47,555 nt of DNA. It comes from a virus. Of the stretch, positions 1 to 21,957 are shown in pieces. The notes under the pieces are model-generated. The model was not told where the DNA came from and did not search any database. It saw nothing but the letters and a program-made list of their open reading frames with translations. Made by a program: the position numbers and the translations under genes. Numbering within the stretch: position 1 is the first letter of the stretch; each line of letters begins with the position of its first letter. The stretch covers positions 1-47,555 of IMG/VR virus record IMGVR_UViG_3300044730_001643; one strand, written 5' to 3'.

Positions 1-29
1 TTCCCGCGTCGCTTGGCGGTCTTGGTCAT
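1..29 (-). CDS. 5' end of a gene running off the window
   Basis: The first nine codons (MTKTAKRRG) of a minus-strand gene. Its ATG overlaps the TGA of the next upstream gene by four bases (ATGA), the coupling used throughout this region. It is very basic at the start. Too little is present to identify it. Confidence 0.55.
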
Positions 30-499
30 TGTGTGTTCGCCATTTCCATTGGGCAAGGCGCAACCTCACCGAATACTGCCTCGTACAGCCTGCGCCCCTC
101 TTGCCAATCGGTCTCCCAATCGCCGTCTGATGAGATTATGGCGCATGAGCCGTAGATAGTCTTGGCACGAATGAGTATCGCCGTTACTACTGCGTCATAG
201 GGTCGCATAGCCGTTTTACAGAATGAGAAGTAGTGGCTCTCACCCTTGCGCCACTCAGCCTGCTCAGGTATGCCTGCCCAATAGAAGGTCTCATAGTCGT
301 GTCCGTTAGAAGCGTCGCCGTTCAGGGCGAACTCAAACTCACCAAATGAAGCCTCGCCCTCTCCGAAAGCGTCACGGATACGTATGCCGTTGGCATTGGC
401 GTAATCCACGATTGCCTTAGCGTCTAATGCGAGTTTTCCATAGAAGTAGGCAGAACCAGCGTTTTTCACGGGTCGCCTAACGTAGTGTGTGTATCCCAT
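26..499 (-). CDS. phage protein of unknown function, MGYTHY family
   Basis: A 157-residue protein that opens with MGYTHYVRRP, an N-terminus seen in many phage accessory proteins of unknown function. It is rich in aromatic residues (YETFYW, HYFSF) and has no signal peptide or membrane segment. The ATG at 499 lies 9 bases after the -10 box of a repeated leaderless promoter and has no Shine-Dalgarno sequence. It is translationally coupled to the gene that runs off the left edge. The family resemblance is recalled, not searched; the role is unknown. Confidence 0.75.
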   Translation of the reverse strand: MGYTHYVRRPVKNAGSAYFYGKLALDAKAIVDYANANGIRIRDAFGEGEASFGEFEFALNGDASNGHDYETFYWAGIPEQAEWRKGESHYFSFCKTAMRPYDAVVTAILIRAKTIYGSCAIISSDGDWETDWQEGRRLYEAVFGEVAPCPMEMANTQ

Positions 500-508
500 A
501 GTCAGGTC

Positions 509-537
509 AGTTTATCGGTCATAATAACTAACCGAAA
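509..537 (-). promoter_or_regulatory. leaderless promoter, repeat family copy 1
   Basis: Read on the minus strand: -35 TTTCGG, 17-base spacer ending ATTATGACCGA, -10 TAAACT, then 9 bases to the ATG at 499. Confidence 0.8.
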
Positions 538-539
538 CC

Positions 540-851
540 TCACGCCCCTTCGTTCGTGCGAGCCAAGTAGTCGGCAAGCCAGCCGTCGCCGTTGGATACC
601 CACAGAACAAGTTGGCGCATTACGGCCCCGACTTCGTCGTCGGTCATTTCCTTACGAAGTTCGGAGAGTTCGGCATTTACCTCAGCGAGTTGGTTAGCGT
701 CAGAAGGTTGCTCATCTTCCAACTGCCAGCGCACCAGAAGGTTGAGTATGTAGGCTTCCATAGCCATTTGACTAACAGGGCGTGAACCCTCAGTCATGCT
801 CTTTGTGGCGTCTAGAAACTCAGACAGGGTGGGGTACAGAGTGGCGGTCAT
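540..851 (-). CDS. small phage protein of unknown function
   Basis: A 103-residue acidic protein, predicted mostly helical, with Glu/Leu-rich segments (NAELSELRKEMTDDEVGAVM) and no cysteines. I do not recognise it. The ATG at 851 overlaps the stop of the preceding gene by four bases, so it belongs to the two-gene transcript started by the promoter at 1221-1249. Stop at 540, just past the -35 box of the next promoter. Confidence 0.7.
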   Translation of the reverse strand: MTATLYPTLSEFLDATKSMTEGSRPVSQMAMEAYILNLLVRWQLEDEQPSDANQLAEVNAELSELRKEMTDDEVGAVMRQLVLWVSNGDGWLADYLARTNEGA

Positions 852-1213
852 ACCGCCACCCCCACCGTAACCCTCGTATGAGTCTTATGGCTGACAACCT
901 GACCTACTGCGTCGTGGGTAATGTCACCCGACGCAACAGCCTTGTCAAACTTCTTGGTATCCACTTTCAGGGCGGTCACCTTGTCAAATGCGTTAGGTGC
1001 GACCATGCGGAGAGTGTCAATGTCAAAGACACGGTTGTTCACTTCCTCAATGGCAACAACGTGTCCGTCGCTCGTTGCGTGGCGAGTAATGCCAGCAAGT
1101 GCGAAGTCTGCTTCCAGCGTCGCACGGTGTTTGGCAAGTGCTTCCTCAGCCTCTTTCAGGGCGTCGTAAGCCTTCTTGTAGTTGTCTGCGGTGTTTGTGA
1201 GTGGTGTGTTCAT
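848..1213 (-). CDS. small phage protein with N-terminal coiled coil
   Basis: A 121-residue protein starting MNTPLTNTAD. The first 40 residues form a likely amphipathic helix (YKKAYDALKEAEEALAKHRA). The rest has beta-like segments and a HTRVTVGVAV tail. The ATG at 1213 is chosen because it lies 7 bases after the -10 box. The reading frame stays open upstream to 1249, but that part is the promoter itself. First gene of a coupled pair with 540-851. Function unknown. Confidence 0.75.
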   Translation of the reverse strand: MNTPLTNTADNYKKAYDALKEAEEALAKHRATLEADFALAGITRHATSDGHVVAIEEVNNRVFDIDTLRMVAPNAFDKVTALKVDTKKFDKAVASGDITHDAVGQVVSHKTHTRVTVGVAV

Positions 1214-1220
1214 GCCCCTC

Positions 1221-1249
1221 AGTCTATCGGTCATAATGTGTAACCACAA
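1221..1249 (-). promoter_or_regulatory. leaderless promoter, repeat family copy 2
   Basis: -35 TTGTGG, 17-base spacer ending CATTATGACCGA, -10 TAGACT, 7 bases to the ATG at 1213. The best single example of the family. Confidence 0.85.
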
Positions 1250-1356
1250 CCCTGTGGATAACTTTGTTCACTTGTGATGCGCCCGCGTGAGAGCGGCCCC
1301 GCCAGCCGCACCTGCGGCGGCGTTGTGGAAACCCCACCTTATGTATTCCTATTTCT

Positions 1357-1372
1357 TACGGTGGCGGAAAGG
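1357..1372 (+). repeat. TACGGTGG site, copy 1
   Basis: TACGGTGGCGGAAAGG on the plus strand, within two bases of the stop codon (TGA at 1374) of a minus-strand gene. One of eight similar sites, all in the same orientation. Confidence 0.7.
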
Positions 1373-1373
1373 G

Positions 1374-1901
1374 TCAGCACATCTGGAACCCACCACAGCC
1401 CTCCAAGAAGTCTGCGAATTCGGCAACATTTTTCACCGAGAACGGATAGCCAGCCTGCCAATTCTCATTTGTGCCAACGCCGTCACAGCCGTTACACCAG
1501 CCGTGTGTGCGACCAGTAAGTATTTGGTTCTCTGGCGAAAGTTCCTTGTCTGGCATACCCATTTCTACGCCAACCTCGTCGGTGCGAATACCAGTAGCAC
1601 CACACCAGCGACAGTCCTCACGGTGAAGGCTCGCCTGATACTCACGGTACTTGCGCTCGTACTCAGCCACAATGCCGTTTATCAGGTCGTGGCGAAGTGC
1701 TTGGGCGAGTTTTAGCGCATTTTCGGCGTCAAGACCCTTGCCGTCGTTCAAGTGCCAATACTCCTCGTCACAGCCACTTGTGGCGATTTCGCCGTGTTGC
1801 GACAAGCAATAGTCGGCTAGCGGTCTCCACCACCACCAGTTATTGCGGAAGTATTCGCCTTTTTTGTTTGTCGGCTCTAAGCCGAAGATGTCCATTCCCA
1901 T
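1374..1901 (-). CDS. phage protein with DnaJ-like Cys-rich zinc motif
   Basis: A 175-residue protein starting MGMDIFGLEP, an opening shared by phage accessory proteins of unknown function. A run of four Trp (NNWWWWRPLADYC) follows. In the second half two CxxC pairs (CRWCGATG and CNGCDGVG) look like half of a DnaJ zinc-finger domain, so zinc binding is likely. It ends GGFQMC. It is a single-gene transcript with its own leaderless promoter, 9 bases from the ATG; an AAGGA stretch also precedes the start. No DnaJ J-domain is present, so a chaperone role is not implied. Confidence 0.75.
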   Translation of the reverse strand: MGMDIFGLEPTNKKGEYFRNNWWWWRPLADYCLSQHGEIATSGCDEEYWHLNDGKGLDAENALKLAQALRHDLINGIVAEYERKYREYQASLHREDCRWCGATGIRTDEVGVEMGMPDKELSPENQILTGRTHGWCNGCDGVGTNENWQAGYPFSVKNVAEFADFLEGCGGFQMC

Positions 1902-1910
1902 AGTTCCTTC

Positions 1911-1939
1911 ATTCTATCGGTCATAATGCGTAATGCCAA
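1911..1939 (-). promoter_or_regulatory. leaderless promoter, repeat family copy 3
   Basis: -35 TTGGCA, 17-base spacer ending CATTATGACCGA, -10 TAGAAT, 9 bases to the ATG at 1901. Confidence 0.85.
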
Positions 1940-1975
1940 CCTGCGTGATTGCTGCCCCGCAGGCGCAACCAAGGT

Positions 1976-1997
1976 CGGGTGGGGTTTCCCCCACCCG
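1976..1997 (-). terminator. strong GAAA-tetraloop hairpin after the coiled-coil gene
   Basis: Read on the minus strand, CGGGTGGGG pairs perfectly with CCCCACCCG around a GAAA loop: 9 base pairs, 7 of them GC. It lies 14 bases after the stop at 2011. There is no U-run, so it may stall or protect RNA ends rather than be a classic intrinsic terminator. Confidence 0.5.
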
Positions 1998-2010
1998 AAC
2001 TCCTGACCAC

Positions 2011-2433
2011 TTACAGGTACTCAGACACCGAGCGCAGAGTGTTTGCTGAAACATACTCATCATCTGAGAGTTCCAACATACGCAGAGCGTTGGTAATCGC
2101 TTCCTTGTCGTTGCGCCAGCGATAGTCCTCGTAGGTCTCGGGCTGTTCTGGCTTTTCGGGCACAAGCGACTTCGGAATAGAGACAGTCACGGAGAACTCT
2201 TTGGTGGTCTTGCGCTGATTACCGTAAAAACGGTTTTCGTCTGCGCTTTCCAGAGTTGCCTTGCCAGACTTGACAAGTTTGAGAATGGCGGCGGTGTACG
2301 CTTCCATTTCCTTGTCGTATTGAGCCTTCTTCTTGTCGTTGTTCTTGAAGTCGGTTTCCAACTCTTTCAGTTTTGCTTCCAGAGTGGTAATCAACTTGGC
2401 TTTCTTGATTTTCAGGTTGAGCGACTTAGCCAT
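2011..2433 (-). CDS. coiled-coil phage protein of unknown function
   Basis: A 140-residue protein. Residues 8-55 are a strongly charged Lys/Glu-rich helix (KLITTLEAKLKELETDFKNN) typical of a coiled coil. A beta segment around TTKEFSVTVSIPKSLVP and a helical C-terminus follow. No catalytic motif is visible. The ATG at 2433 has a weak CAGGTG upstream and overlaps a 12-codon leader ORF that begins at the promoter-proximal ATG, so translation may be coupled to that leader. Confidence 0.7.
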   Translation of the reverse strand: MAKSLNLKIKKAKLITTLEAKLKELETDFKNNDKKKAQYDKEMEAYTAAILKLVKSGKATLESADENRFYGNQRKTTKEFSVTVSIPKSLVPEKPEQPETYEDYRWRNDKEAITNALRMLELSDDEYVSANTLRSVSEYL

Positions 2434-2464
2434 TAGCCGTCACCTGTTTGGTTGTGTGTTTCAT
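2426..2464 (-). CDS. 12-codon leader peptide ORF
   Basis: ATG at 2464 sits 7 bases after the -10 box, where every other copy of this promoter places a real start. It encodes MKHTTKQVTANG and stops at 2426, eight bases inside the following gene. It is either a translated leader that delivers ribosomes to the ATG at 2433 or the remnant of an older start. Confidence 0.4.
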   Translation of the reverse strand: MKHTTKQVTANG

Positions 2465-2471
2465 GCCCCTC

Positions 2472-2500
2472 AGTCTATTGGTCATAATGAATAACGCCAA
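2472..2500 (-). promoter_or_regulatory. leaderless promoter, repeat family copy 4
   Basis: -35 TTGGCG, 17-base spacer ending CATTATGACCAA (one change from consensus), -10 TAGACT, 7 bases to the leader ATG at 2464. Confidence 0.75.
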
Positions 2501-2542
2501 CCCTGAGAAACGGAAATGTTTGTCCTTTTTGCGTGTTGTCTG

Positions 2543-2570
2543 AGTGTATCGGTCATTATGGATTTCGCAA
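2543..2570 (-). promoter_or_regulatory. orphan repeat-family promoter, copy 5
   Basis: -35 TTGCGA, 16-base spacer ending CATAATGACCGA, -10 TACACT. No ATG, GTG or TTG lies 6-9 bases downstream, unlike the other copies. It would fire into copy 4, giving a tandem pair. Confidence 0.5.
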
Positions 2571-2666
2571 CCCCCAGCCCCGCCTGCAGCAATCGTCACA
2601 CAAACCGATTATCTACAATCCGATATAACGAAACGCGGGACCACAGACACCATTATGTTTATTTCT

Positions 2667-2682
2667 TACGGTGGCGGAAAGG
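2667..2682 (+). repeat. TACGGTGG site, copy 2
   Basis: TACGGTGGCGGAAAGG, identical to copy 1 including the flanking TTTCT and GGTCAG, again within two bases of a minus-strand stop codon (2684). Confidence 0.7.
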
Positions 2683-2683
2683 G

Positions 2684-2989
2684 TCAGACTGAAACTTCGT
2701 AGAAGTGTGCGGGGTCTGGTGCTTTCTTGGTAATCAAGTATCCAATGCGATTGACGTAGTGGTAGCCATCAACGACTACCGTGCCATCGTCGCCGTCAAT
2801 GTAAGTCCAGACATAGAGGTTTGGCTCTCTTGCGTTGGAGACGCCGACAACATAAAGGACTTCTTCGCCGTAGGTCTCAAACAGCAAGCCACCCAAGCCT
2901 GCGTCATCAGACAGGTGGTTCTCAATGGGTTGAAACTCTTTCTCCCACGCCTCAAAGTCCATGTGCTTTATGGTGAGTTTTACGGTCAT
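2684..2989 (-). CDS. small phage protein of unknown function
   Basis: A 101-residue protein starting MTVKLTIKHMDFEAWEKEF, with beta-strand-rich sequence (EVLYVVGVSN, LYVWTYIDGDDGTVVVDGYHYV). The ATG at 2989 is preferred over the longer frame because it overlaps the upstream stop by four bases (ATGA). It is the second gene of a coupled pair under the promoter at 3220-3248. No known family recognised. Confidence 0.7.
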   Translation of the reverse strand: MTVKLTIKHMDFEAWEKEFQPIENHLSDDAGLGGLLFETYGEEVLYVVGVSNAREPNLYVWTYIDGDDGTVVVDGYHYVNRIGYLITKKAPDPAHFYEVSV

Positions 2990-3213
2990 GGCAGGAAGTC
3001 CTTTGCGATTTCTTTCTGTTCTGCGAGCGGAATGTACTTGGGTTCGTCGCCTTCCAGAGGAGAGACATCCCAGATGACATCCCAACCTGCGTCATGAACA
3101 TCAAAGAGGCGGTCAGCGTGAATGGCTGCGTGATAGGCAGCCTCCTCGTCTTCCGCATCAACAACGAAGCGACCTTCAATGGACTTGCTAATGTTTACTA
3201 AGTATTTAGGCAT
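2986..3213 (-). CDS. small DpnD/PcfM-like protein
   Basis: A 75-residue protein, MPKYLVNISKSIEGRF, followed by VVDAEDEEAAYHAAI. This pattern, a short beta hairpin and then an acidic 'AEDEEAA' helix, recurs in 10430-10594 and 3666-3848 of this window, so the three form a small paralogous set like the DpnD/PcfM-type phage proteins. The leaderless ATG is 6 bases from the -10 box. Role unknown. Confidence 0.7.
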   Translation of the reverse strand: MPKYLVNISKSIEGRFVVDAEDEEAAYHAAIHADRLFDVHDAGWDVIWDVSPLEGDEPKYIPLAEQKEIAKDFLP

Positions 3214-3219
3214 ACCGTC

Positions 3220-3248
3220 AGTTTATCGGTCATAATGACTAAATGCTA
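3220..3248 (-). promoter_or_regulatory. leaderless promoter, repeat family copy 6
   Basis: -35 TAGCAT (weak), 17-base spacer ending CATTATGACCGA, -10 TAAACT, 6 bases to the ATG at 3213. Confidence 0.75.
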
Positions 3249-3448
3249 CCCAACCGCCTCATCAACTCGCCGTGCAAGTCGGAGTCTCGGTCAACATCTT
3301 CTTTGGCGTCAAGGTCTTCCCACTGCTCTGTGTCGCCGTTCCACACGGCCCCGTCAGGGAAACGCGCATCGAGAGAACTGTGGTCAATGTGGAAGACAGG
3401 CTGTCCGTTGTCTACCCAGCACTCAACGATGAAGTAGTGCTTTTTCAT
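3239..3448 (-). CDS. small phage protein of unknown function
   Basis: A 69-residue acidic protein, MKKHYFIVECWVDNGQPVFH, then an Asp/Trp-rich stretch (DGAVWNGDTEQWEDLDAKED). Coupled by ATGA to the gene upstream, 3445-3639, whose promoter it shares. Its last codons overlap the -35 box of promoter copy 6. Not recognised. Confidence 0.65.
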   Translation of the reverse strand: MKKHYFIVECWVDNGQPVFHIDHSSLDARFPDGAVWNGDTEQWEDLDAKEDVDRDSDLHGELMRRLGSI

Positions 3449-3639
3449 TTCTTGCCGCCCATGTAATGCTCAATGATGCGACGAAGCCCTGCTCCGTGTT
3501 CATACCACTCGCCATGTGGGTCTGCGCCCTGTTCATACTCGGCTTTGAGTTCGGCTGGCAACTCGTCGGTGTCAATGATGATTGCGTCATCAACAGCGAA
3601 GTAGGTGTCAGTCCCTGGGTGTACGACGATGAGGTTCAT
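3445..3639 (-). CDS. small acidic phage protein
   Basis: A 64-residue protein, MNLIVVHPGTDTYFAVDDAI, with an acidic middle and a basic HYMGGKK tail. The leaderless ATG lies 6 bases from its -10 box. First gene of a coupled pair. Not recognised. Confidence 0.65.
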   Translation of the reverse strand: MNLIVVHPGTDTYFAVDDAIIIDTDELPAELKAEYEQGADPHGEWYEHGAGLRRIIEHYMGGKK

Positions 3640-3645
3640 GCTTGT

Positions 3646-3674
3646 ATCTTATCGGTCATAATGCTCTATGCCAA
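3646..3674 (-). promoter_or_regulatory. leaderless promoter, repeat family copy 7
   Basis: -35 TTGGCA, 17-base spacer ending CATTATGACCGA, -10 TAAGAT, 6 bases to the ATG at 3639. Confidence 0.85.
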
Positions 3675-3848
3675 CTCTGCTTCTATGCGGAAGTTGGAAA
3701 TGTCCATCGGCAACAAGTCGTCACCGATAGCGACGTCCATTGCCTTGCTCTCGGCGTCGGCCCCGTCCTCGGCGAATACCGTGACGGTCGTGATGTGGTA
3801 GTCGGCAACGAAATGTACGTTCCAACGTTGAAGCGTGTCGTTCACCAT
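3666..3848 (-). CDS. small DpnD/PcfM-like protein
   Basis: About 60 residues, starting MVNDTLQRWNVHFVADYHIT at 3848, or VND from the GTG at 3845. Both overlap the upstream stop (ATGGTGA). The middle (VTVFAEDGADAESKAMDVAI) matches the acidic-helix pattern of 2986-3213. Second gene of the transcript started at 4328-4356. Confidence 0.6.
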   Translation of the reverse strand: MVNDTLQRWNVHFVADYHITTVTVFAEDGADAESKAMDVAIGDDLLPMDISNFRIEAELA

Positions 3849-4318
3849 GAACTTTGGTATCCGAAATCCCACTCGTCGGACATTGACAAGGCGTTTTCAA
3901 GTATCTTCACCGTCAGTTCAAGGTCTGAGAAATAGCCCTCGTCATATTCCTGCGAGCCAAAGAAGAAGCCCTGCTGAGTCGGGAGAAGTTCGTCAGCCTT
4001 GCTGTGGTCAGCAATCACTTCCTTGCACAGGTCACGCAGTTCAGTCAGCCTCTCACGACTGACGTATGCCTCACGGCAGTCATCTTCGCCGTTCTGGCAG
4101 TTGTCCACGAACCATTGGTGAACGGCATTTGCTTTGCGCCAATAGCCGATTTTCATCTCAACAGAGATGCTTGGCAAGTTCTTTTCAAGATGCTTGGCAT
4201 CATCGCCAATCATATTCTTCAACTTCAAGAAGTCGGTGTTCATTTGTTGCCAACGCTCGTTCTCGACTTTGTTTGAGCAGGTGTATTTCTTTGCGTAGAG
4301 GTATTGGTCTAATCCCAT
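3842..4318 (-). CDS. conserved phage protein, MGLDQYLYA family
   Basis: A 158-residue protein with the recognisable opening MGLDQYLYAKKY and a central block, IGYWRKANAVHQWFVDNCQ, that recurs in phages of many hosts. The family has no established function that I know of. Two Cys (DNCQNGEDDC) follow the core block. The leaderless ATG is 9 bases from its -10 box. It is coupled to 3666-3848 downstream. Confidence 0.8.
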   Translation of the reverse strand: MGLDQYLYAKKYTCSNKVENERWQQMNTDFLKLKNMIGDDAKHLEKNLPSISVEMKIGYWRKANAVHQWFVDNCQNGEDDCREAYVSRERLTELRDLCKEVIADHSKADELLPTQQGFFFGSQEYDEGYFSDLELTVKILENALSMSDEWDFGYQSSW

Positions 4319-4327
4319 AGTGGTTTC

Positions 4328-4356
4328 AGTCTATCGGTCATAATGAATAATCACAA
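4328..4356 (-). promoter_or_regulatory. leaderless promoter, repeat family copy 8
   Basis: -35 TTGTGA, 17-base spacer ending CATTATGACCGA, -10 TAGACT, 9 bases to the ATG at 4318. Confidence 0.85.
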
Positions 4357-4361
4357 CTTGA

Positions 4362-4643
4362 CTACTCGTCGCTCCGCTTCTCAATAACGGCACGGATTTC
4401 GCTAAGGCTGTCTTTGAAGTTCCTACGCCATTCGTTCCACATGGCTTCGTCTTGCATCATGTGATTTGCGAGTTCCTCAAAGTCGCTCGGTGAGCGGTCT
4501 TTCCACCATGCGAGGTCGTCAGCATGGGGGACAAGACGTGGATGCGTAGACGCAAGTCCAAGCATCTCATTGACTTCTTCTTCAAGGTCGGCGGGCATCA
4601 TGCTGATGACGTACGCCGTTTCGTAGTGGGTCCTGTTGCTCAT
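4362..4643 (-). CDS. small helical phage protein
   Basis: A 93-residue protein, MSNRTHYETAYVISMMPADL, predicted mostly helical and acidic, with a Trp-rich middle (DDLAWWKDRSPSDFEELANH). The leaderless ATG lies 8 bases from the -10 box. Single-gene transcript. Not recognised. Confidence 0.7.
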   Translation of the reverse strand: MSNRTHYETAYVISMMPADLEEEVNEMLGLASTHPRLVPHADDLAWWKDRSPSDFEELANHMMQDEAMWNEWRRNFKDSLSEIRAVIEKRSDE

Positions 4644-4651
4644 GGCCGATG

Positions 4652-4680
4652 ATTCTATCGGTCATAATGCGCAACTACAA
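4652..4680 (-). promoter_or_regulatory. leaderless promoter, repeat family copy 9
   Basis: -35 TTGTAG, 17-base spacer ending CATTATGACCGA, -10 TAGAAT, 8 bases to the ATG at 4643. The -35 box contains the TAG stop of the upstream gene. Confidence 0.85.
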
Positions 4681-4848
4681 CTTGGCTTGCTCCATTGCGG
4701 AGATGTAGGCAAGGCGGATGTCAAGAAGGATGTCGGTCATCTCACCTGAAGACACAAGGTCCCGCCCTGCGCACTCGCGAATGGCGTGGTCAATCAGGGT
4801 CAAAGTTTCCTTATGGCTATCTTTTACGGTGGCGGAAAGGTCTGACAT
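4675..4848 (-). CDS. 57-residue phage protein of unknown function
   Basis: A short frame from ATG at 4848 encoding MSDLSATVKDSHKETLTLID and ending AYISAMEQAKL. It is predicted all-helical. A GGAAGG sequence lies upstream, across the end of the previous gene. An alternative TTG start inside it is preceded by AAGGAA. TACGGTGG site copy 3 lies inside the first codons, the only copy within a gene. Small but well placed between two expressed genes. Confidence 0.6.
   Translation of the reverse strand: MSDLSATVKDSHKETLTLIDHAIRECAGRDLVSSGEMTDILLDIRLAYISAMEQAKL
4825..4840 (+). repeat. TACGGTGG site, copy 3
   Basis: TACGGTGGCGGAAAGG on the plus strand, 18 bases after the stop of the 4858-5226 gene and overlapping the start of the 57-residue gene. 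Confidence 0.65.
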
Positions 4849-4857
4849 ACATCTATC

Positions 4858-5226
4858 TTACCTTCCGAAATGCTCACCGACGATGAGCCACAGGTGTTCT
4901 GCTGAATCCGTGAATGGCTTGACAATCTGCTCATGTTTGCTGACGTATGAAATTGTTTGCACTGGCAAAGATTGGACACCTTGCGTGTGGAAGTTCAGCC
5001 AACCGCTTACTGGCGACCAAACATCAACACGAGCGTCAGAATAGTCGTCACGGCTGCCACGGCGAATCACAACGCGACACTTGTTCTTGTTGCCATGCGA
5101 GTCTTTCACATTACGAATTTCGGTGTATAACCATTCCTGCTGCCAATTGCGAAACGTAACGTCATGTCCGTCTTCGCTGTAGGTGTGGAATCCGTTATCA
5201 AGGGTCATGGTGTTGGTATCTTTCAT
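4858..5226 (-). CDS. phage protein of unknown function
   Basis: A 122-residue protein, MKDTNTMTLDNGFHTYSEDG, rich in aromatic and polar residues and probably beta-rich (ARVDVWSPVSGWLNFHTQG). No motif recognised. The leaderless ATG at 5226 lies 6 bases from the -10 box. Confidence 0.7.
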   Translation of the reverse strand: MKDTNTMTLDNGFHTYSEDGHDVTFRNWQQEWLYTEIRNVKDSHGNKNKCRVVIRRGSRDDYSDARVDVWSPVSGWLNFHTQGVQSLPVQTISYVSKHEQIVKPFTDSAEHLWLIVGEHFGR

Positions 5227-5232
5227 GGTGCC

Positions 5233-5261
5233 ATTCTATCGGTCATAATGAATAATCACAC
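5233..5261 (-). promoter_or_regulatory. leaderless promoter, repeat family copy 10
   Basis: -35 GTGTGA, 17-base spacer ending CATTATGACCGA, -10 TAGAAT, 6 bases to the ATG at 5226. Overlaps the stop codon of the upstream gene. Confidence 0.8.
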
Positions 5262-5450
5262 TTCTTCGTATGTGTCGTACCCATCGCATGCCTCAAAGTA
5301 TTCGGTGCGGTCACCGAGCAGCCCCGCAATGCGGGTAAGCAGGGCGGCGATTATCTTGTCCGATTCCTTGTTCCAAGCATCTTGACTGTCGGCGTGTTCA
5401 CATTTGGGAACCGAAAAGGCGATGCTGTAGGCGTGGTTGTATGTGGTCAT
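5256..5450 (-). CDS. small phage protein of unknown function
   Basis: A 64-residue protein, MTTYNHAYSIAFSVPKCEHA, with an acidic C-terminus. The ATG at 5450 is chosen for its ATGA overlap with the upstream stop. Last gene of a three-gene transcript begun at 6097-6125. Not recognised. Confidence 0.65.
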   Translation of the reverse strand: MTTYNHAYSIAFSVPKCEHADSQDAWNKESDKIIAALLTRIAGLLGDRTEYFEACDGYDTYEEV

Positions 5451-5851
5451 GACTTGCCCTCCCACTTCAACCGCTCTTGACTTCCCTCTTCTGTCCAGAA
5501 TGGGAACCCGACGAACTCGTTGAAGATGCAGAAGTCGTCATACTCAGCACTTGGCTCTTCGCCCCACGATGTACCGCCCGTAACACGGAACTCACGACCG
5601 CCATCAAAGAAGATGCCCGATACGTCCCGATTACCATCACAGCCGTACACAAGGTCTATGGCATAGGAGATGCGTTCCTTGACACGGCGTTGCAGGTCGT
5701 CGGACCAGTCCTCGTCAGTGAATCCAAAGAAACCAGAGTCTTCCATGCGGCCCAAGTCGGCCTCGGTGATAACTAACCTCTCGAGCCGCTTACGGCAGTC
5801 CTCTATGGACTCCCGAATCTCAACGGTCGCAAGAATAAGGTCGGCGCCCAT
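5447..5851 (-). CDS. phage protein of unknown function
   Basis: A 134-residue protein, MGADLILATVEIRESIEDCR, whose N-terminal 45 residues are helical and the rest is aromatic and acidic (FFGFTDEDWSDDLQ, FCIFNEFVGFPFWTEEGS). The ATG at 5851 shares one base with the stop of the preceding gene (TAATG), which fixes the start. Not recognised. Confidence 0.7.
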   Translation of the reverse strand: MGADLILATVEIRESIEDCRKRLERLVITEADLGRMEDSGFFGFTDEDWSDDLQRRVKERISYAIDLVYGCDGNRDVSGIFFDGGREFRVTGGTSWGEEPSAEYDDFCIFNEFVGFPFWTEEGSQERLKWEGKS

Positions 5852-6090
5852 TACTTCACCCCATGCATCTGCTGGTACTCGGGATAGGTGTTCCCGATGA
5901 TTTCGTGCGGATTGGACTCCTCGTAGCACTCAAGATTGAGTGAGCCATCATCGTTGAATGACAGGATGATGTTGTAGATGGTGTCCTTCGTGCCGTCTGT
6001 TCGGACGATGTTGACTTCGGCCCGACATAAGCCTGGGTCCCAGTCATTGAGCGGAATGTCTGCAATTGGGATGTTTAGTTCGTGTTTCAT
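5851..6090 (-). CDS. small phage protein of unknown function
   Basis: A 79-residue acidic protein, MKHELNIPIADIPLNDWDPG, probably a small beta fold. First gene of the three-gene transcript. The leaderless ATG lies 6 bases from the -10 box. Not recognised. Confidence 0.7.
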   Translation of the reverse strand: MKHELNIPIADIPLNDWDPGLCRAEVNIVRTDGTKDTIYNIILSFNDDGSLNLECYEESNPHEIIGNTYPEYQQMHGVK

Positions 6091-6096
6091 GACATC

Positions 6097-6125
6097 ATTC
6101 TATCGGTCATAATACTCAACTGCAA
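6097..6125 (-). promoter_or_regulatory. leaderless promoter, repeat family copy 11
   Basis: -35 TTGCAG, 17-base spacer ending TATTATGACCGA, -10 TAGAAT, 6 bases to the ATG at 6090. Confidence 0.85.
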
Positions 6126-6127
6126 CC

Positions 6128-6406
6128 TCAGATGAGTTCTTTCAGGGCTTCATCCCACTTATCGTCGTTGTCATCATCGGCAATAGCGTGTAGGAAATAA
6201 TAGGTCTTGCTGTGCTTCATGGATAGTTTATGAAACATGGCGAACATTGCTTCGCTGTCTTCGCCTTCGCCGTTGAAGATACTCTCAAACATCTTGAGAA
6301 TGTCATCTCGTTCAGTTTCTGGCATTTCGCCCCATGCTTGCATGATTTCATTCATCATTTTCTGGGACATCATTTCGTTGATTATTTCTTCAAGTGGGTT
6401 TTCCAT
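6128..6406 (-). CDS. acidic helical phage protein
   Basis: A 92-residue protein, MENPLEEIINEMMSQKMMNE, unusually rich in Met, Glu and Asp and predicted all-helical. The ATG at 6406 is set by the promoter, 7 bases after the -10 box. The longer frame to 6436 runs through the promoter. Not recognised. Confidence 0.7.
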   Translation of the reverse strand: MENPLEEIINEMMSQKMMNEIMQAWGEMPETERDDILKMFESIFNGEGEDSEAMFAMFHKLSMKHSKTYYFLHAIADDDNDDKWDEALKELI

Positions 6407-6413
6407 GTCGTTG

Positions 6414-6442
6414 AGTTTATCGGTCATAATGCGCAATCACAA
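6414..6442 (-). promoter_or_regulatory. leaderless promoter, repeat family copy 12
   Basis: -35 TTGTGA, 17-base spacer ending CATTATGACCGA, -10 TAAACT, 7 bases to the ATG at 6406. Confidence 0.85.
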
Positions 6443-6643
6443 CCAAGGGCGACGGCCAACGAAATGCATAGAGATGCGATAGGGCCGCTCACGTTCAGGT
6501 ACGCCGACCCAGGCCCCGCCGCAATGGCCGCACCCGAAATATTCACGTCCCTTATGTGGCTCTGATTGTTCGCTGTACTGGTATTCATGCTCGCATACCG
6601 CTTCGCGAACTATCTGCTTGATTTCAGAGAATAAACGTTTCAC
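6437..6643 (-). CDS. small zinc-ribbon-like phage protein
   Basis: A 68-residue protein starting from a GTG at 6643 that overlaps the upstream stop (GTGA). It reads MKRLFSEIKQIVREAVCEHE, then FGCGHCGGAW. C17 with the later CGHC gives three to four candidate zinc ligands. A basic, aromatic C-terminus follows. It is probably a small zinc-binding protein; the partner is unknown. Confidence 0.65.
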   Translation of the reverse strand: MKRLFSEIKQIVREAVCEHEYQYSEQSEPHKGREYFGCGHCGGAWVGVPERERPYRISMHFVGRRPWL

Positions 6644-6807
6644 GATTCGTCCCCTGCATCTTGCGGTTCGTCGTAGATTTCTCCGTCTTCACCTTCGTAG
6701 AATCCTGTGTAAATGACAATCTGGCCTTCGTTATCTACTTCGTGGCTGAATTCATCAATTGCATCAAAGAGCAACTTCAGGCGTAGTTCTTTTTGTTTTT
6801 TACTCAT
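6640..6807 (-). CDS. 55-residue acidic phage protein
   Basis: A short frame from ATG at 6807 encoding MSKKQKELRLKLLFDAIDEF and ending EPQDAGDES: a basic helix followed by an acidic tail. It has a full repeat-family promoter 6 bases upstream and is coupled by GTGA to the next gene, so it is real despite its size. It is the most upstream minus-strand gene of the accessory block. Confidence 0.7.
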   Translation of the reverse strand: MSKKQKELRLKLLFDAIDEFSHEVDNEGQIVIYTGFYEGEDGEIYDEPQDAGDES

Positions 6808-6813
6808 AACTTC

Positions 6814-6842
6814 ATTTTATCGGTCATAATACCCAACCACAA
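6814..6842 (-). promoter_or_regulatory. leaderless promoter, repeat family copy 13
   Basis: -35 TTGTGG, 17-base spacer ending TATTATGACCGA, -10 TAAAAT, 6 bases to the ATG at 6807. Confidence 0.85.
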
Positions 6843-6905
6843 CCTGACATGGAGTCAAAGGGGAGGGCATTCGAATGCGCGCGTCAACTGGCCCCGCTCC
6901 TGTAC

Positions 6906-6923
6906 AACGCTGCACTCAGCGTT
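6906..6923. terminator. hairpin in the divergent intergenic region
   Basis: AACGCTG pairs with CAGCGTT around a CACT loop, seven perfect base pairs, midway between the minus genes (start 6807) and the plus genes (start 7024). No U-run on either side. The rest of 6843-7023 holds only TACGGTGG copy 4 and a candidate -35/-10 for the plus gene. Confidence 0.35.
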
Positions 6924-6980
6924 ATACCCAGTGACTGACGACACGAAATTTGCAGGTTGCAAATTGACGTGGCTATCCCC

Positions 6981-6996
6981 TACGGTGGTGGAAGAC
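6981..6996 (+). repeat. TACGGTGG site, copy 4
   Basis: TACGGTGGTGGAAGAC, 27 bases upstream of the ATG of the first plus-strand gene. TTGCAA lies 18 bases before TACGGT, so TACGGT could serve as a -10 box here. Confidence 0.65.
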
Positions 6997-7023
6997 AACT
7001 ACAACATATAGGGAGAAATAAAC

Positions 7024-7452
7024 ATGAAAGCAAAACAGTCGCCGATGATTGTCAACACGGCAAAAACAGATGGCATTATCACGCCAATCAAGTACGCGCG
7101 TACCAAAAATGGCAAGATTGACCTTGATGCCTACAAGGGGAAGAAAGGACAAATCAAGGAAAACAATTTGACGATTGATGTCAACATTGTTGATTCTCGA
7201 GTTCGTTACGGGCATCTCGACCTTCGCGTTACGCCAGTGTCTGGTGACGGAGAGGTCTGGGTAGAACGCAAGAACATTCTGATTCACAACGACCCAGCAA
7301 TGACGGTCAAAGAAAACAAAGTCGCCGCGCGCACATTCGTGTCAGACCACGACAACAACGGGGCAAAAGCCTTCTCGGCCATGAACGCAGATGAACTTCG
7401 CGCCTTGGTCACTGCCCTGGTTGAAAAGGAGCGAAAGACTCAGAAAGCCTGA
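7024..7452 (+). CDS. phage protein of unknown function
   Basis: A 142-residue basic protein, MKAKQSPMIVNTAKTDGIIT, with a beta-rich middle (NNLTIDVNIVDSRVRYGHLD) and a helical tail (NADELRALVTALVEKERKTQ). The ATG at 7024 has a clear GGGAG ribosome-binding site, unlike the leaderless genes around it. First gene of the plus-strand group. Not recognised. Confidence 0.75.
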   Translation: MKAKQSPMIVNTAKTDGIITPIKYARTKNGKIDLDAYKGKKGQIKENNLTIDVNIVDSRVRYGHLDLRVTPVSGDGEVWVERKNILIHNDPAMTVKENKVAARTFVSDHDNNGAKAFSAMNADELRALVTALVEKERKTQKA

Positions 7453-7628
7453 CCAGGTCTCAAGTCTTCACGAAGATAAACCACATCTTTTTCCCCTGGT
7501 TCTGGTGACGGAACTGGGGAATCTGGTGTGGTTTCTTCTTTTATTTCTGCTTTTACGGGTTCTTCAACTGGAACTCTTTGCAACTTTTGGTTGGAACCCA
7601 GGGCCCCGTGCGGCTTATCGTTAGACAT
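7440..7628 (-). CDS. small Pro/Glu-rich protein on the opposite strand
   Basis: A 62-residue frame, MSNDKPHGALGSNQKLQRVP, followed by a Pro/Glu-rich low-complexity stretch and LREDLRPGQAF. AAAGGA lies seven bases before the ATG, a good ribosome-binding site. Its end overlaps the end of the plus gene by 13 bases. It is probably disordered. It could be spurious. Confidence 0.45.
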   Translation of the reverse strand: MSNDKPHGALGSNQKLQRVPVEEPVKAEIKEETTPDSPVPSPEPGEKDVVYLREDLRPGQAF

Positions 7629-7648
7629 TTGTGCATCCTTTCACAATG

Positions 7649-7677
7649 TTGTTTCAATCCATTATGACCAATAGACT
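7649..7677 (+). promoter_or_regulatory. leaderless promoter, repeat family copy 14
   Basis: On the plus strand: -35 TTGTTT, 17-base spacer ending CATTATGACCAA, -10 TAGACT, 7 bases to the ATG at 7685. Confidence 0.8.
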
Positions 7678-7684
7678 TATGGAC

Positions 7685-8122
7685 ATGCTAAATCTAACAG
7701 ATAATTTTATTGACACCATGGACACCGACGCACGACGCATCCCAGATGTTGAGCGTGGCCTTTACGTATTACAAACGTGGCAGAAGTCTGGGGCCAATGG
7801 CTCACCAATGTCTTGGCTGAGGGACTACATGATACGCCCAGAAGGTGTTGCATGGCTCAGTCAATACATCATTCCCAAACTTGGCGTTGTTGTCATTGAG
7901 GAAGAAAAGACCGAGAAGCGCAAGGATAAGTACGCGCGTTTGGAAAAGTTTGCGCTGGACAACCTCTACAAAGAATTCACCACGCAACAACTCGTTGATG
8001 AGTCGGGGCTCGGCGCCCAGACTGTAACCAAGTGGGCAAAGACCACTGGTTATTTCAGGGGCATTGGCAAGGGCAAGTGGGAAGCCCGAAATCCAAAGGA
8101 TGACCGCAAGTACGATTCGTAA
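7685..8122 (+). CDS. helix-turn-helix DNA-binding protein
   Basis: A 145-residue protein. Near the C-terminus FTTQQLVDESGLGAQTVTKW is a typical helix-turn-helix, followed by basic residues, so sequence-specific DNA binding is likely. The start at 7685 is preferred to 7679 because it keeps the 7-base distance from the -10 box. It has its own repeat-family promoter and lies next to the ATPase gene with another, so it is a candidate regulator of that family. Inference only. Confidence 0.7.
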   Translation: MLNLTDNFIDTMDTDARRIPDVERGLYVLQTWQKSGANGSPMSWLRDYMIRPEGVAWLSQYIIPKLGVVVIEEEKTEKRKDKYARLEKFALDNLYKEFTTQQLVDESGLGAQTVTKWAKTTGYFRGIGKGKWEARNPKDDRKYDS

Positions 8123-8124
8123 GG

Positions 8125-8153
8125 TTGTGATTATCCATTATGACCGATAGACT
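8125..8153 (+). promoter_or_regulatory. leaderless promoter, repeat family copy 15
   Basis: On the plus strand: -35 TTGTGA, 17-base spacer ending CATTATGACCGA, -10 TAGACT, 7 bases to the ATG at 8161. Confidence 0.85.
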
Positions 8154-8160
8154 AGTCGGC

Positions 8161-8886
8161 ATGACAAACACACACACAACCACACAACTCCCTGAGTGCT
8201 GGCAAGCACTTGAGGACGTACTCAACAATGGCATTGACCGTGTAATTCTTTTCGGTCCCCCAGGGACTGGCAAGACCTACGCAGGCATGAACTTTGGACA
8301 AGTAGACAACGGCTCGTTCCGTATAACCTGCACCGAAGACATGACCAACCTCAACGTAGACGGTGCATTCCTACCCTCCAGCGACGGCAAGTCGTTCAGG
8401 TGGTACGAAGGCTCGGCGCTGAAGGCTTGGAAATCTGGCGGTCGACTCGTCGTGGACGAGATTGACAAGGCTGGGTCGGATGTTTATGCCACCCTACTCA
8501 ATTTCCTTGACACGCCTGATTCGGCATCTTGGGAACATCCAGACACTGGAGAAATCGTGCGTCCTACGTCAGGTTTCTCTGCCGTCATGACAACCAACAT
8601 TGAGGACATGGCTGAATTGCCAGAAGCATTGGCTGACCGATTCCCTGTTCGGATTCGCATCAACCAACCACACCCCAATGCACTGCGCCGTCTCTCACGA
8701 GACCTGCGTCAGGTTGCGGTTCAAATGGCCGACGCTGGTTCGCAACGAATCTCACTGCGAACGTTTATGGCGTTTGACAGTATGCGTAAAGCGCTGGGCG
8801 ATGAAAAAGCAGCGAACATCATCTTTGCGCATCGTGCAGAAGGAATCTTGGACGCAATCCGTGTCAATTCAGTGGAGACTGCGTGA
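8161..8886 (+). CDS. MoxR/CobS-type AAA+ ATPase
   Basis: A 241-residue AAA+ ATPase. Walker A is GPPGTGKT at about residues 32-39, Walker B is RLVVDEID at about 95-102, a sensor-1 TTN follows and DRF supplies a likely arginine finger. Length and motifs fit the MoxR/CobS group found in many phages beside a VWA protein. In characterised MoxR-VWA pairs the ATPase remodels a target bound by the VWA partner. The next gene starts inside its stop (GTGA), so the two are coupled. The cobalamin name of the relatives does not imply B12 synthesis here. Confidence 0.88.
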   Translation: MTNTHTTTQLPECWQALEDVLNNGIDRVILFGPPGTGKTYAGMNFGQVDNGSFRITCTEDMTNLNVDGAFLPSSDGKSFRWYEGSALKAWKSGGRLVVDEIDKAGSDVYATLLNFLDTPDSASWEHPDTGEIVRPTSGFSAVMTTNIEDMAELPEALADRFPVRIRINQPHPNALRRLSRDLRQVAVQMADAGSQRISLRTFMAFDSMRKALGDEKAANIIFAHRAEGILDAIRVNSVETA

Positions 8887-10433
8887 ACACCAAGACAAAG
8901 AAGCACCCAGAACCAAACATCATCATTCGGCGTGACCGACCAATTGGTAGGTGGACTGCCGAAGAGTGCGCTCCGAAACGTGGCGTTGCAAAGACGGACC
9001 TAATTGGGCGCCGTCTTTATGCGCCAGTTGGTGACACGCCACTTGAGCGTGTCGTTCGTGCGCACGAATTGATGCATGCCAAAATCACTCCTGCGGAAGA
9101 CTTGGACAAGTGGCTTGCTCGCAAGGTTGCCACATTTGAGGCTATTCAGGCTGTTGAGGAAGTCCGTGTCAACTACGGAATTCAAAAGGCTGGCTTCAAT
9201 CTTGATGACCTGACTGACGGCAACGAAGATGCTGACGGCGAGTACTCGGCAATCAACGGCGAATGGCGTAGTGCGGTATTGTTTGCCGTTGCTACTGCAG
9301 GAACTTCTGGGGGCAAGCGCTTCTTGGTAGGCGTTCGTCGGCACAATAAACAGTGGGCTGATGCTCTCCAGAAGATTCAAAAGCACATTTGGAAGCACAT
9401 TCAGGGCGCTGACACTGGTCGCATTGGTCGCAAGAGTGTTGCGAAAGAATCGCCGTTCTCAACTGAGAGATGCAGTGCGAATGGGCTTTACCCACACGGA
9501 TTCTCGTGGACCGAACGTTGGGCTGAGTACGTTGACCGATTGGCTGAAATCCCACCGAAAACAAAGACCGCTCCCTCAAAGAAAAACAAGGGTTCTGCCG
9601 TTGATGAATCGCAAGAGGGTGACAGCCAAGACGGAAAGGGTGACAGCCAAGACGGAAATGATGAAGAGGAAACAAAATCAATCGCCAACAAAGGCTCTGA
9701 ATCCTACGAAGAGACGTTGCGTGACCTGCGTCCACTGCGCCAAGAGCGTGGAGGAGACAAGTGGTCTAATCTCTCTTGGGGCAAGGTTCCGTTGACTGCG
9801 GTATCAAAAGGAAGGCTCGGCAAGAGTCGTGTTGCAATGGCGTACGGTCGCAATCCTCGTCGCATCGGTCGGCTCTACACTGACCCACAGCGCCGTGTAT
9901 TTGACCACGAGCGTCGTGCCAAGGGTGGAATCGTGCTAATTGACGGCTCTGGCTCTATGTCACTGACACGCAACAACGTTCTTGACATCCTCAAGGTTGC
10001 CCCAGGGGCAACTGTCGCAATCTATTCGGACATGGACGAGGGAAAGGGAGTCGTGCCAAACATCCACATCATCGCAAAAGACGGCAAGTGTGTTGAAGAA
10101 AAGAACATGCCAGAATTCGGTCGTGGGAACGGCGTTGACCTACCTGCACTTGAATGGGCGATTGAACAACGCAAGAAGAAAGAACCTGTCGTTTGGGTGA
10201 CTGACGGCGGTGTGTGCGTTGCAAATTCAGGCTATAGCGAATTACTTGCCAAGGCTTGCATCTCAACTGCAAAGAAGCACAACGTCATCTGCGTGGACCA
10301 CGTCAATGACGCAATCACACAATTGCAGGCGCTCAATGCAGGCAGAACTGTCAGGGCGAAGTACCCACACTACTTCTCACAAACGATTCGCAGTCTTGGT
10401 GGAATGGATACCGAACAGGAGGTGAAAGCGTGA
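8883..10433 (+). CDS. zincin-like and VWA domain protein (CobT-like)
   Basis: A 516-residue partner of the ATPase. The N-terminal part carries a zincin motif, HELMH at residues 61-65, with a downstream EE(92-93)VR segment that could give the third metal ligand. The middle (about 225-280) is a disordered acidic linker with a GDSQDG repeat. The C-terminal VWA domain has the MIDAS motif DGSGS at 354-358 and VTDGG near 440. The layout matches the DUF2201/VWA-like metallopeptidases. GTG start by GTGA overlap. It may be a protease or metal-dependent chaperone controlled by the MoxR ATPase. Confidence 0.85.
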   Translation: MNTKTKKHPEPNIIIRRDRPIGRWTAEECAPKRGVAKTDLIGRRLYAPVGDTPLERVVRAHELMHAKITPAEDLDKWLARKVATFEAIQAVEEVRVNYGIQKAGFNLDDLTDGNEDADGEYSAINGEWRSAVLFAVATAGTSGGKRFLVGVRRHNKQWADALQKIQKHIWKHIQGADTGRIGRKSVAKESPFSTERCSANGLYPHGFSWTERWAEYVDRLAEIPPKTKTAPSKKNKGSAVDESQEGDSQDGKGDSQDGNDEEETKSIANKGSESYEETLRDLRPLRQERGGDKWSNLSWGKVPLTAVSKGRLGKSRVAMAYGRNPRRIGRLYTDPQRRVFDHERRAKGGIVLIDGSGSMSLTRNNVLDILKVAPGATVAIYSDMDEGKGVVPNIHIIAKDGKCVEEKNMPEFGRGNGVDLPALEWAIEQRKKKEPVVWVTDGGVCVANSGYSELLAKACISTAKKHNVICVDHVNDAITQLQALNAGRTVRAKYPHYFSQTIRSLGGMDTEQEVKA

Positions 10434-10982: not shown

Positions 10983-11360
10983 TTAAGCCAACTGCTGATT
11001 CTTTTTAACTATTTGATGCACGCGCTGCCGAGAAAGTTCGAACTCATCCGCAATAAAGCGAAGAGATTTTCCGCCGCGATGCAAATCCAAAATTCTCGAG
11101 TTTCTGTCTTGGTTCGTCTGAGGTCCTGGACGCAGCGGGCCCCATTGCCAATCGCGAATTTGTTCAAGAATTTGAATCTTGTCTACGGGAAGTTGACCCT
11201 TGCGGCGACGCTGCCGAAGATATCCAACCCAAGAACCAAGCGGCAGCGGGGCGCCATCGACGTGCTCCACGTGGGCCGCGGGAACTCGGCAATGTCCTTC
11301 GCGCGCGACGAAGTTATTGAGTGCTGTAACAGTGAGGTTGAAACGCGTGATGTTGTCCAT
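10983..11360 (-). CDS. helicase-associated domain plus HTH protein
   Basis: A 125-residue protein from the ATG at 11360 (MDNITRFNLT); an in-frame start at 11435 also exists. Residues about 10-70 match the helicase-associated (HA) domain: LNNFVAREGHCRVP, then GSWVGYLRQRRRKGQL and IRDWQW. The C-terminal 40 residues are a region-4-like helix-turn-helix (SRILDLHRGGKSLRFIADEF, then SRQRVHQIVK). Both parts should bind DNA and no helicase motor is present. A TTGAAA with TTATAC 18 bases on lies upstream. It is a candidate regulator or origin-binding protein. Confidence 0.75.
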   Translation of the reverse strand: MDNITRFNLTVTALNNFVAREGHCRVPAAHVEHVDGAPLPLGSWVGYLRQRRRKGQLPVDKIQILEQIRDWQWGPLRPGPQTNQDRNSRILDLHRGGKSLRFIADEFELSRQRVHQIVKKNQQLA

Positions 11361-12821: not shown

Positions 12822-13269
12822 CCTGGAACTCTCTCAGTTCATCAAGACGCTCTTTTTCACTTATGACCGCGCACTTGTTCCAAAGGACCTAAAGGAATAT
12901 TGCAGCGCCTGGTCGCCATACATCAAGGAGTTCGATTACAGCCTGTGCCAACAATTATTGCCAAACATTTGTATGGGTAGAGAATTCATACCACGACCGT
13001 GGGAAGTTCGTGTTGCCCTAATAAATCACACCAAATCAATTACCCCTCCTCCATCACCCCAACAAGCATGGGCACAGTACCAAGAGATAATGGCTGCGGT
13101 GACGAGCGGGGCCTCGGCGGACATCCAGACACACGATGTATTGGTCGAGGTGATGAGGGCCTTGGGTTCTGCTGGCATGAACAACCAGTTTGACGCCAAG
13201 CGATTCGAGGCATTATATGTTGATAAGACTAATCAATGGATGAAAAAGACGTACTGGGTAGGGAGTTAA
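12814..13269 (+). CDS. replicative-helicase loader-like protein
   Basis: A 151-residue protein from the GTG at 12814, which has GGGAG five bases upstream; a TTG at 12793 is possible but has no such site. The pattern TDLELSQFIKTLFFTYDRAL, then W-YIKEFDY and FIPRPWEVRVALINH, resembles the G39P/G40P-type loader-inhibitor family that delivers the phage helicase to the origin. Its position after the organiser-like gene supports that. The motifs are weak, so this is a working assignment. Confidence 0.6.
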   Translation: MTDLELSQFIKTLFFTYDRALVPKDLKEYCSAWSPYIKEFDYSLCQQLLPNICMGREFIPRPWEVRVALINHTKSITPPPSPQQAWAQYQEIMAAVTSGASADIQTHDVLVEVMRALGSAGMNNQFDAKRFEALYVDKTNQWMKKTYWVGS

Positions 13270-13555: not shown

Positions 13556-13897
13556 ATGGCTGAGCCACGCAGGGCCGAATACGAAGACCGCCTTTACAAT
13601 GTGGGCGTACGGATATCTGGCAAACAAAAGAACCTCATCATTGACCATGCCAAAGAAAAGGGTATTTCTGTATCCCAATTGATTGAGTACGCCGTCTGGG
13701 ATTTCATTAGACAAGACAAAGGCATCCCTTCTCCTGGCCCCTCCCAATTCGCCAAAGCCGATGCAACCGATGTGGTTCGCTCTTATCTCACTGGGGAAAC
13801 GATTCTTCAACCTTGTGGGAAAATCTCCTGTGTCCAAGACATAGTGATGTTTCAGGGCATGGAGTTTTGCGAGAACTGCAACCTTCGTATCCTTTAG
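13556..13897 (+). CDS. RHH-like DNA-binding protein with zinc-ribbon tail
   Basis: A 113-residue protein. Residues 12-52 (LYNVGVRISGKQKNLIIDHA, then GISVSQLIEYAVWDFIRQ) follow the ribbon-helix-helix pattern of its upstream neighbour. The C-terminal 30 residues carry four Cys (PCGKISC and FCENC), a probable zinc ribbon. It is probably a regulator. It ends convergently, overlapping the WhiB gene by 4 bases. Confidence 0.65.
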   Translation: MAEPRRAEYEDRLYNVGVRISGKQKNLIIDHAKEKGISVSQLIEYAVWDFIRQDKGIPSPGPSQFAKADATDVVRSYLTGETILQPCGKISCVQDIVMFQGMEFCENCNLRIL

Positions 13898-16497: not shown

Positions 16498-16565
16498 GTT
16501 GCCCCCGTGTGGTTGATGGTGCACACATAATAGACCATCTGTGCTACGCTGTGCCGCAATTCCCT

Positions 16566-17681: not shown

Positions 17682-17690
17682 GTGACCAGA

Positions 17691-17876: not shown

Positions 17877-17894
17877 AGTTGATTCCTCGTAAAT

Positions 17895-19007: not shown

Positions 19008-19009
19008 GA

Positions 19010-21924: not shown

Positions 21925-21957
21925 TTTCTGCCTCCCTGGGGCGCTTCAATTTTACAA

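Follow-up and report, generated by a model that had tools for sequence, protein, structure and literature searches.

The window analysed here is the whole 47,555-nt stretch of the virus record IMGVR_UViG_3300044730_001643, with coordinates counted from its first base. We scanned all of it for a repeated promoter-like unit, consisting of a TTG-like -35 box, a 17-nt spacer ending in ATTATGACCGA, and a -10 box of the form TARNNT (TACACT in one copy), and found 15 units (13 on the minus strand and 2 on the plus strand), all at 509-8153. These counts agree with those of an earlier note on this DNA, as does the constancy of the spacer, which is exact in 12 of the 15 copies and differs by one base in the other three (at 2478, 2549, and 7661). 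The boxes proposed there were retained in part: of its -35 consensus TTGTGA, the TTG-like portion held and the full hexamer did not, and its -10 consensus TARAMT fits most units, the exceptions being TAAGAT (3646) and TACACT (2543). Besides, the C preceding ATTATGACCGA is not constant, with T in three copies. The window's lineage-specific version of the spacer is CATTATGACCGA, its fixed tag comprising 12 letters, and CATTATGAC denotes the spacer portion of the unit considered apart from TTG, CGA, and the -10 box. The units and the genes behind them are as follows; G039, G092, G101, and L250 are related records introduced below.

509-537 (minus): TTTCGG-17-TAAACT; ATG at 499; MGYTHY gene, 26-499; orthologous promoters in G039, G092, and G101
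1221-1249 (minus): TTGTGG-17-TAGACT; ATG at 1213; gene 848-1213; orthologous promoters in G039, G092, and G101
1911-1939 (minus): TTGGCA-17-TAGAAT; ATG at 1901; gene 1374-1901; orthologous promoter in G092
2472-2500 (minus): TTGGCG-17-TAGACT, spacer ATTATGACCAA; ATG at 2464, opening a 12-codon open reading frame (ORF; 2426-2464) that overlaps the start of the real gene, 2011-2433
2543-2571 (minus): spacer ATAATGACCGA, -10 TACACT; without a nearby start codon; upstream partner of 2472-2500, about 70 bp away
3220-3248 (minus): poor -35 TAGCAT, -10 TAAACT; ATG at 3213; gene 2986-3213; orthologous promoter in G101
3646-3674 (minus): TTGGCA-17-TAAGAT; ATG at 3639; gene 3445-3639
4328-4356 (minus): TTGTGA-17-TAGACT; ATG at 4318; gene 3842-4318
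4652-4680 (minus): TTGTAG-17-TAGAAT; ATG at 4643; gene 4362-4643; orthologous promoter in G092
5233-5261 (minus): GTGTGA-17-TAGAAT; ATG at 5226; gene 4858-5226
6097-6125 (minus): TTGCAG-17-TAGAAT; ATG at 6090; gene 5851-6090
6414-6442 (minus): TTGTGA-17-TAAACT; ATG at 6406; gene 6128-6406; orthologous promoter in G092
6814-6842 (minus): TTGTGG-17-TAAAAT; ATG at 6807; gene 6640-6807; copy at the matching place in L250 (382, minus)
7649-7677 (plus): TTGTTT-17-TAGACT, spacer ATTATGACCAA; ATG at 7685, with an in-frame ATG also at 7679; orthologous promoters in L250 and G092
8125-8153 (plus): TTGTGA-17-TAGACT; ATG at 8161 (AAA ATPase gene); orthologous promoters in L250, G092, and G101

The seed ATTATGACCGA (at most one mismatch) followed by TA occurs at 15 sites in the window versus none in each of 20 Markov simulations. 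A pattern blind to the spacer (TTG-N20-TANNNT-N6-9-ATG; both strands, whole window) gave 12 matches, 11 of which are known units. TTG stands exactly 17 nt 5' of the -10 box in 11 of the 15 units, and allowing a shift of up to 3 nt adds just one. The sixth base of the -10 box is T in all 15 units, although it lies outside the search seed, and it is T at every site in all six motif-bearing records. Each unit has a -10 box and a single orientation relative to the downstream gene, and alignment of the sites showed, by eye, an asymmetric conserved part in every lineage, with no imperfect inverted repeat. No further unit was found in the remaining 39 kb of the window, nor in the 6.9 kb by which a second record, G002 (IMGVR_UViG_3300042471_001502), extends its right end. 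G002 was rejected as a motif-less relative, being the same phage (99.99% identical to 12840-47555) in a stretch outside the motif region. The sequence supports the proposal of the earlier note that the units are promoters with a conserved spacer, each serving one small gene or short operon. Here and below, we infer promoters and transcripts from sequence.

The position of the start codon is likewise fixed. As had been reported for 14 units, an ATG lies 6 to 9 nt past the -10 box in 14 of the 15 (gap of 6 nt, five units; 7 nt, five; 8 nt, one; 9 nt, three), compared with 6 of 83 other TANNNT sequences at 1-8300. In all relatives the gap is mostly 6 to 7 nt, which is the commonest gap in the larger records and places the expected transcription start at, or adjoining, the A of the ATG. 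Shine-Dalgarno (SD) 4-mers precede the starts in 3 of 14 cases in the window, 3 of 23 in G039, 0 of 19 in G092, and 3 of 23 in G101, against a background of about 7% of random 15-mers. In contrast, a related record with a different repeated promoter type (L281) has its first ATG mostly 34 to 47 nt downstream and an SD sequence in 7 of 13 cases. No common SD-bearing element was found ahead of the window ATGs that would correspond to the 13-bp start-associated sequence (SAS) of cluster K mycobacteriophages, whose AGGAG core lies 3 to 9 bp from the start codon, and a reading of the unit as a ribosome-binding site was rejected for lack of SD sequences. Thus, the leaderless geometry claimed earlier is borne out by the sequence, with initiation probably to be expected at the ATG or no more than about 3 nt from it, so that the mRNAs would be leaderless.

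Relatives were found by pattern and protein searches of viral contigs and then by reading the records found. Near-identity searching among phage isolates gave no match, and searches with 43- to 44-nt consensus sequences gave chance-level matches only. A first 17-mer scan of viral contigs returned 67 stretches, mostly by chance, among them G039 with many copies. The version in G092 was spotted upstream of its AAA gene, and that in G101 emerged from 9-mers repeated ahead of ORFs; both were thus detected independently of the exact spacer of the window. In all, five related records share the architecture with a lineage-specific spacer:

G039, 45 kb: 25 sites, spacer CATAATRACCGA
G048, 24 kb: 5 sites, spacer CATAATRACCGA
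L250, 14 kb: 3 sites, spacer CATAATRACCGA
G092, 55 kb: 21 sites, spacer CCATTAGTRCCRM
G101, 32 kb: 26 sites, spacer CTTATTACGGR

L250 is colinear with the window from 7024 to about 21900 (protein identity, 45 to 86%) and has its three copies at positions corresponding to those of the window. Random spacers in relatives, which the earlier note had named as evidence against its reading, were not what we found: in L250, G039, G092, and G101, the promoters of orthologous genes retain both the architecture and a nonrandom spacer. Records L199-L203 contain the helicase of G039 and lack the motif, having another repeat, TAAATCTAACC, instead. Other phages with the MGYTHY gene are mostly without the promoter, several having an SD sequence in its place. 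The isolate closest by two proteins is Microbacterium phage Big4, whose first 24.5 kb show no comparable repeated promoter.

The genes behind the units form orthologous groups across the records, the MGYTHY gene and the AAA ATPase being represented in four records, and 74 of 91 ordered orthologue matches have their own genome's spacer version at the start. Identity over the last 12 bases of the spacer is 0.90 among unrelated genes within a genome versus 0.63 among orthologues across lineages, a contrast that is still large although the seeds used to collect sites inflate the within-genome value somewhat. GTTG at the -35 box is 0.88 alike between orthologues. The spacer is thus under selection within a genome, where the sites are kept uniform, whereas from one genome to another they change together. 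Uniformity within each genome is also what one cassette, recently spread by duplication or gene conversion with no selecting factor, would produce. We regard this as scarcely credible, since identity within a genome drops to about 0.28 (random) just upstream of the -35 box, the downstream genes are mutually unrelated, and promoters of orthologous genes are retained even where the genes have diverged; the random flanks led us to reject gene conversion and block duplication.

A trans-acting reader is the simplest cause of dispersed sites switching together. We consider it reasonably probable that the units are host-type promoters whose spacer is read by a trans-acting factor, most likely phage encoded, with the set coevolving in each lineage. 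In such a scheme, the host RNA polymerase, carrying the primary sigma factor, would use the units, which lie in the nonstructural region of an actinobacterial phage, and the asymmetric spacer positions at about -24 to -16 would be recognized by the factor. The last three bases before the -10 box fit the host extended -10 element as well. Because the same factor would have to fit every site, the set would evolve together, and corresponding genes would come to carry a different version in each lineage. The bound factor would most likely set the timing of the whole set during infection, by either activation or shut-off. The spacer is kept even where the -35 box is poor, TTG being present in just 14 of the 25 sites of G039. 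This combination would fit an activator, albeit weakly, since poor -35 boxes are normal in actinobacteria.

An actinobacterial host is indicated by WhiB proteins, which are encoded in 11 of 13 related records. Actinobacteria commonly use leaderless TANNNT promoters, and many promoters of Mycobacterium tuberculosis have a CGN or SRN extended -10 element (PMC3898074). The last three spacer bases are CGA in the window and SRN in the other lineages, and because CGA matches the host extended -10 element, that part of the spacer constancy needs no additional protein. The suggestion of the earlier note that a protein probably reads the spacer gains support from the shift of the spacer as a set between lineages, these three bases being a qualification, and its overall interpretation is partly supported. 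The match also suits another explanation, in which the whole spacer reflects the preference of a host RNA polymerase or transcription factor, the lineages differ by host, and no phage regulator is involved. G039 and L250 share a motif and almost no genes, as would be expected under this explanation, and no phage regulator is present in every motif-bearing record save WhiB, which is itself missing from the short G048 record. Nevertheless, conservation at -24 to -16 exceeds any spacer consensus in PMC3898074, promoters of this kind are missing elsewhere in the window, and a 26-nt extended form of the motif had just 2 isolated matches in 85,000 bacterial and archaeal genomes, which is odd for a host preference. 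We therefore judge a purely host-determined spacer to be rather unlikely.

Four genes of the window are relevant to the question of a phage-encoded reader, and for three of them, all but the ATPase, binding tests had been suggested in the earlier note:

7685-8122 (plus): predicted winged-helix protein, 145 amino acids; candidate spacer reader
8161-8886 (plus): AAA_5 ATPase (Pfam AAA_5, E = 2.8e-14); target gene of the promoter at 8125-8153
10986-11360 (minus): protein with an HA domain and a sigma70-region-4-like helix-turn-helix (HTH) (Pfam HA, E = 7.2e-13)
13894-14211 (minus): WhiB-like protein (Pfam Whib, E = 2.3e-13); host clue and possible sigma-binding partner

The winged-helix protein is the leading, unproven candidate. 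Its gene adjoins the promoter block and itself carries a unit in the window, L250, and G092, and orthologues occur in L250, G092, G101, L262-265, and L209. The recognition helix is most altered in G101, whose spacer differs most among the four. An AlphaFold2 model has a confident winged-helix-like C-terminal half, with no significant match in PDB. The HA/HTH protein is disfavored: its predicted recognition helix, LSRQRVHQI, hardly varies over eight records whose motifs differ, a constancy that speaks against the protein as the determinant of specificity. WhiB proteins are widely shared but are not known to read spacers. A Cro/C1-type HTH gene lies inside the promoter regions of G039 and G092 and is missing from the window and G101 records.

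The HA/HTH protein would be of interest as well if a dedicated phage sigma factor or single-subunit RNA polymerase read the whole unit, a possibility with which the conservation of nearly the entire -35 to -10 block in G092 agrees. This seems very unlikely to us, as TTG-17-TANNNT is a host-type geometry, and 11 records, which are possibly fragments, gave no match to sigma region 2 (PF04542; the positive control worked) or to a T7-type polymerase (PF00940; the positive control failed).

Several points weigh against the explanation that we favor, in addition to the seed effect mentioned above. The motif is missing at the start in 17 of the 91 orthologue matches. The recognition helix of the winged-helix protein is nearly the same in the window and G092, yet their spacers differ; no orthologue of the protein was found in the G039 or G048 fragments, and no other single reader emerged from the records searched. 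Moreover, a host factor that varies between hosts could yield the same pattern.

A phage-encoded reader might also act as an immunity repressor, the spacer being an operator through which the promoters are silenced in a lysogen, as in cluster A mycobacteriophages. The conserved part indeed resembles cluster A sites in being asymmetric, about 13 bp long, present in 15 to 26 copies per genome, oriented with transcription, and lineage specific (PMC6550527). The units sit inside promoters, however, whereas most cluster A sites are not promoter associated, and no tyrosine integrase or serine recombinase was found in 11 related records, including those of 90, 141, and 145 kb, a negative limited by the records being fragments and by plasmid-like prophages needing no integrase. 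Lysogenic repression is less favored because no integrase was seen, and we hold this explanation to be improbable. More tentatively, and with the balance somewhat against it, the records may represent a probably lytic clade in which 15 to 26 leaderless promoters per genome are controlled through a spacer-reading regulator, the code and its reader being replaced together in each lineage.

Other features of these phages were noted. A second repeat, ACGGTGGYGGA, usually followed by AAG or similar, is nearly unchanged across nearly all of them. Copies lie on the plus strand of the window at 1358, 2668, 4826, 6982, 10716, 11452, and 12322, and the repeat occurs also in G039, G048, G092, G101, L250, L205, L213, L215, L264, L265, L278, L279, and L281. 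The listed copies are on one strand in each genome, the exception being 40519 (minus) of the window in a repetitive glycine-coding stretch, and this strand is opposite to that of most leaderless promoters in the window, G039, G092, and G101. The repeat could be a strand-polarity signal, Chi-like or for priming. Repeated promoter-like elements of other kinds, with mostly longer leaders, were seen in L281 (GTTGTAATTNTTACAC...TATACTTAT), L215 (TTGTCTCANNNGCGTCCCAA), and L279 (GTATCTGTCCTG), and in L213, ACTAAAGGATAATGT occurs on both strands, in over 20 copies of which some are in tandem or face each other. The repeat GATAAATCTAACCAGAAA stands ahead of several genes in G039 (L176), G048 (L195), and L199-L203 and is not in the window.

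In G039 (12834-12975; L175) and G048 (2270-2411; L194), a conserved motif promoter without a start codon faces the 3' end of the helicase gene. It is followed by a conserved hairpin-rich stretch that matches no tRNA or Rfam family and is possibly a small RNA or terminator. The window contains no tRNA, and no Rfam family was found in the window, L175, L194, or L250. ORFs of several thousand codons are present in G048 (L194; 6967-20352, >4,300 amino acids) and G039 (16215-27098). At 8161-10433 of the window, a 516-amino-acid protein is encoded directly after the AAA_5 ATPase, and the pair, which is kept in L250, resembles MoxR-VWA pairs, the VWA part being presumed.

If the spacers are read as we propose, these phages would offer natural sets of 15 to 26 near-identical leaderless promoters per genome, and orthologous genes would provide several diverged versions, which may be insulated from one another. 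The coevolution of a regulator with many dispersed sites would become directly testable, and phages would be using the promoter spacer as a recognition surface in controlling transcription in actinobacteria. Furthermore, if code and reader are replaced together, lineages would have private transcription codes for the same genes, insulated from each other, and a gene acquired from a relative would have to be re-tagged before working.

Phage proteins that redirect the host polymerase through an element at or within the -35 to -10 interval are exemplified by Lpa of phage P1 and MotA of phage T4. The element of P1 late promoters is an inverted repeat near -22, and in T4 middle promoters the -35 box is replaced, whereas the window unit mostly keeps TTG and its element is asymmetric. 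Leaderless SigA-like promoters have been described in cluster O mycobacteriophages (PMC4351075), and these, like those of M. tuberculosis (PMC3898074), share with the window a TANNNT -10 box and a start codon that coincides with the +1, whether predicted or mapped; in M. tuberculosis, the -10 box is also frequently preceded by CGN (PMC3898074). However, few such promoters were reported in cluster O, their spacers were not described as shared, and the 17-bp repeat of that cluster lies mostly away from promoters (PMC4351075), unlike the window element. The operators and stoperators of cluster A phages (L5 and Bxb1) are asymmetric 13- to 14-bp sites, 20 to 30 per genome (PMC6550527, PMC9283540). 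Besides the likenesses given above, the cluster A consensus covaries with the repressor; most of these sites, though, lie outside promoters and block elongation in lysogens, whereas all window units have promoter geometry. The extended start-associated sequence (ESAS) of cluster K is a repeated 46- to 47-bp intergenic unit, with 7 copies in Adephagia (PMC3203893, PMC11373665). Similar to the window unit, it has SigA-like -35 and -10 boxes (17 to 18 bp apart in the ESAS) with an embedded conserved element, precedes small nonstructural genes, varies in sequence between subclusters, and has no named reader. It differs in containing an imperfect inverted repeat and in usually being followed by an SD-bearing SAS, so that it is not leaderless, whereas the window unit has an asymmetric spacer, a start codon 6 to 9 nt past the -10 box, and 15 to 26 copies in the larger records. 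Cluster K ESAS and cluster A repressor sites are the nearest described elements. Since the unit lacks a defining feature of the ESAS (the SD start element and inverted repeat) and one of cluster A sites (a mostly off-promoter location), we class it with neither and place it among repeated phage promoter-operator units.

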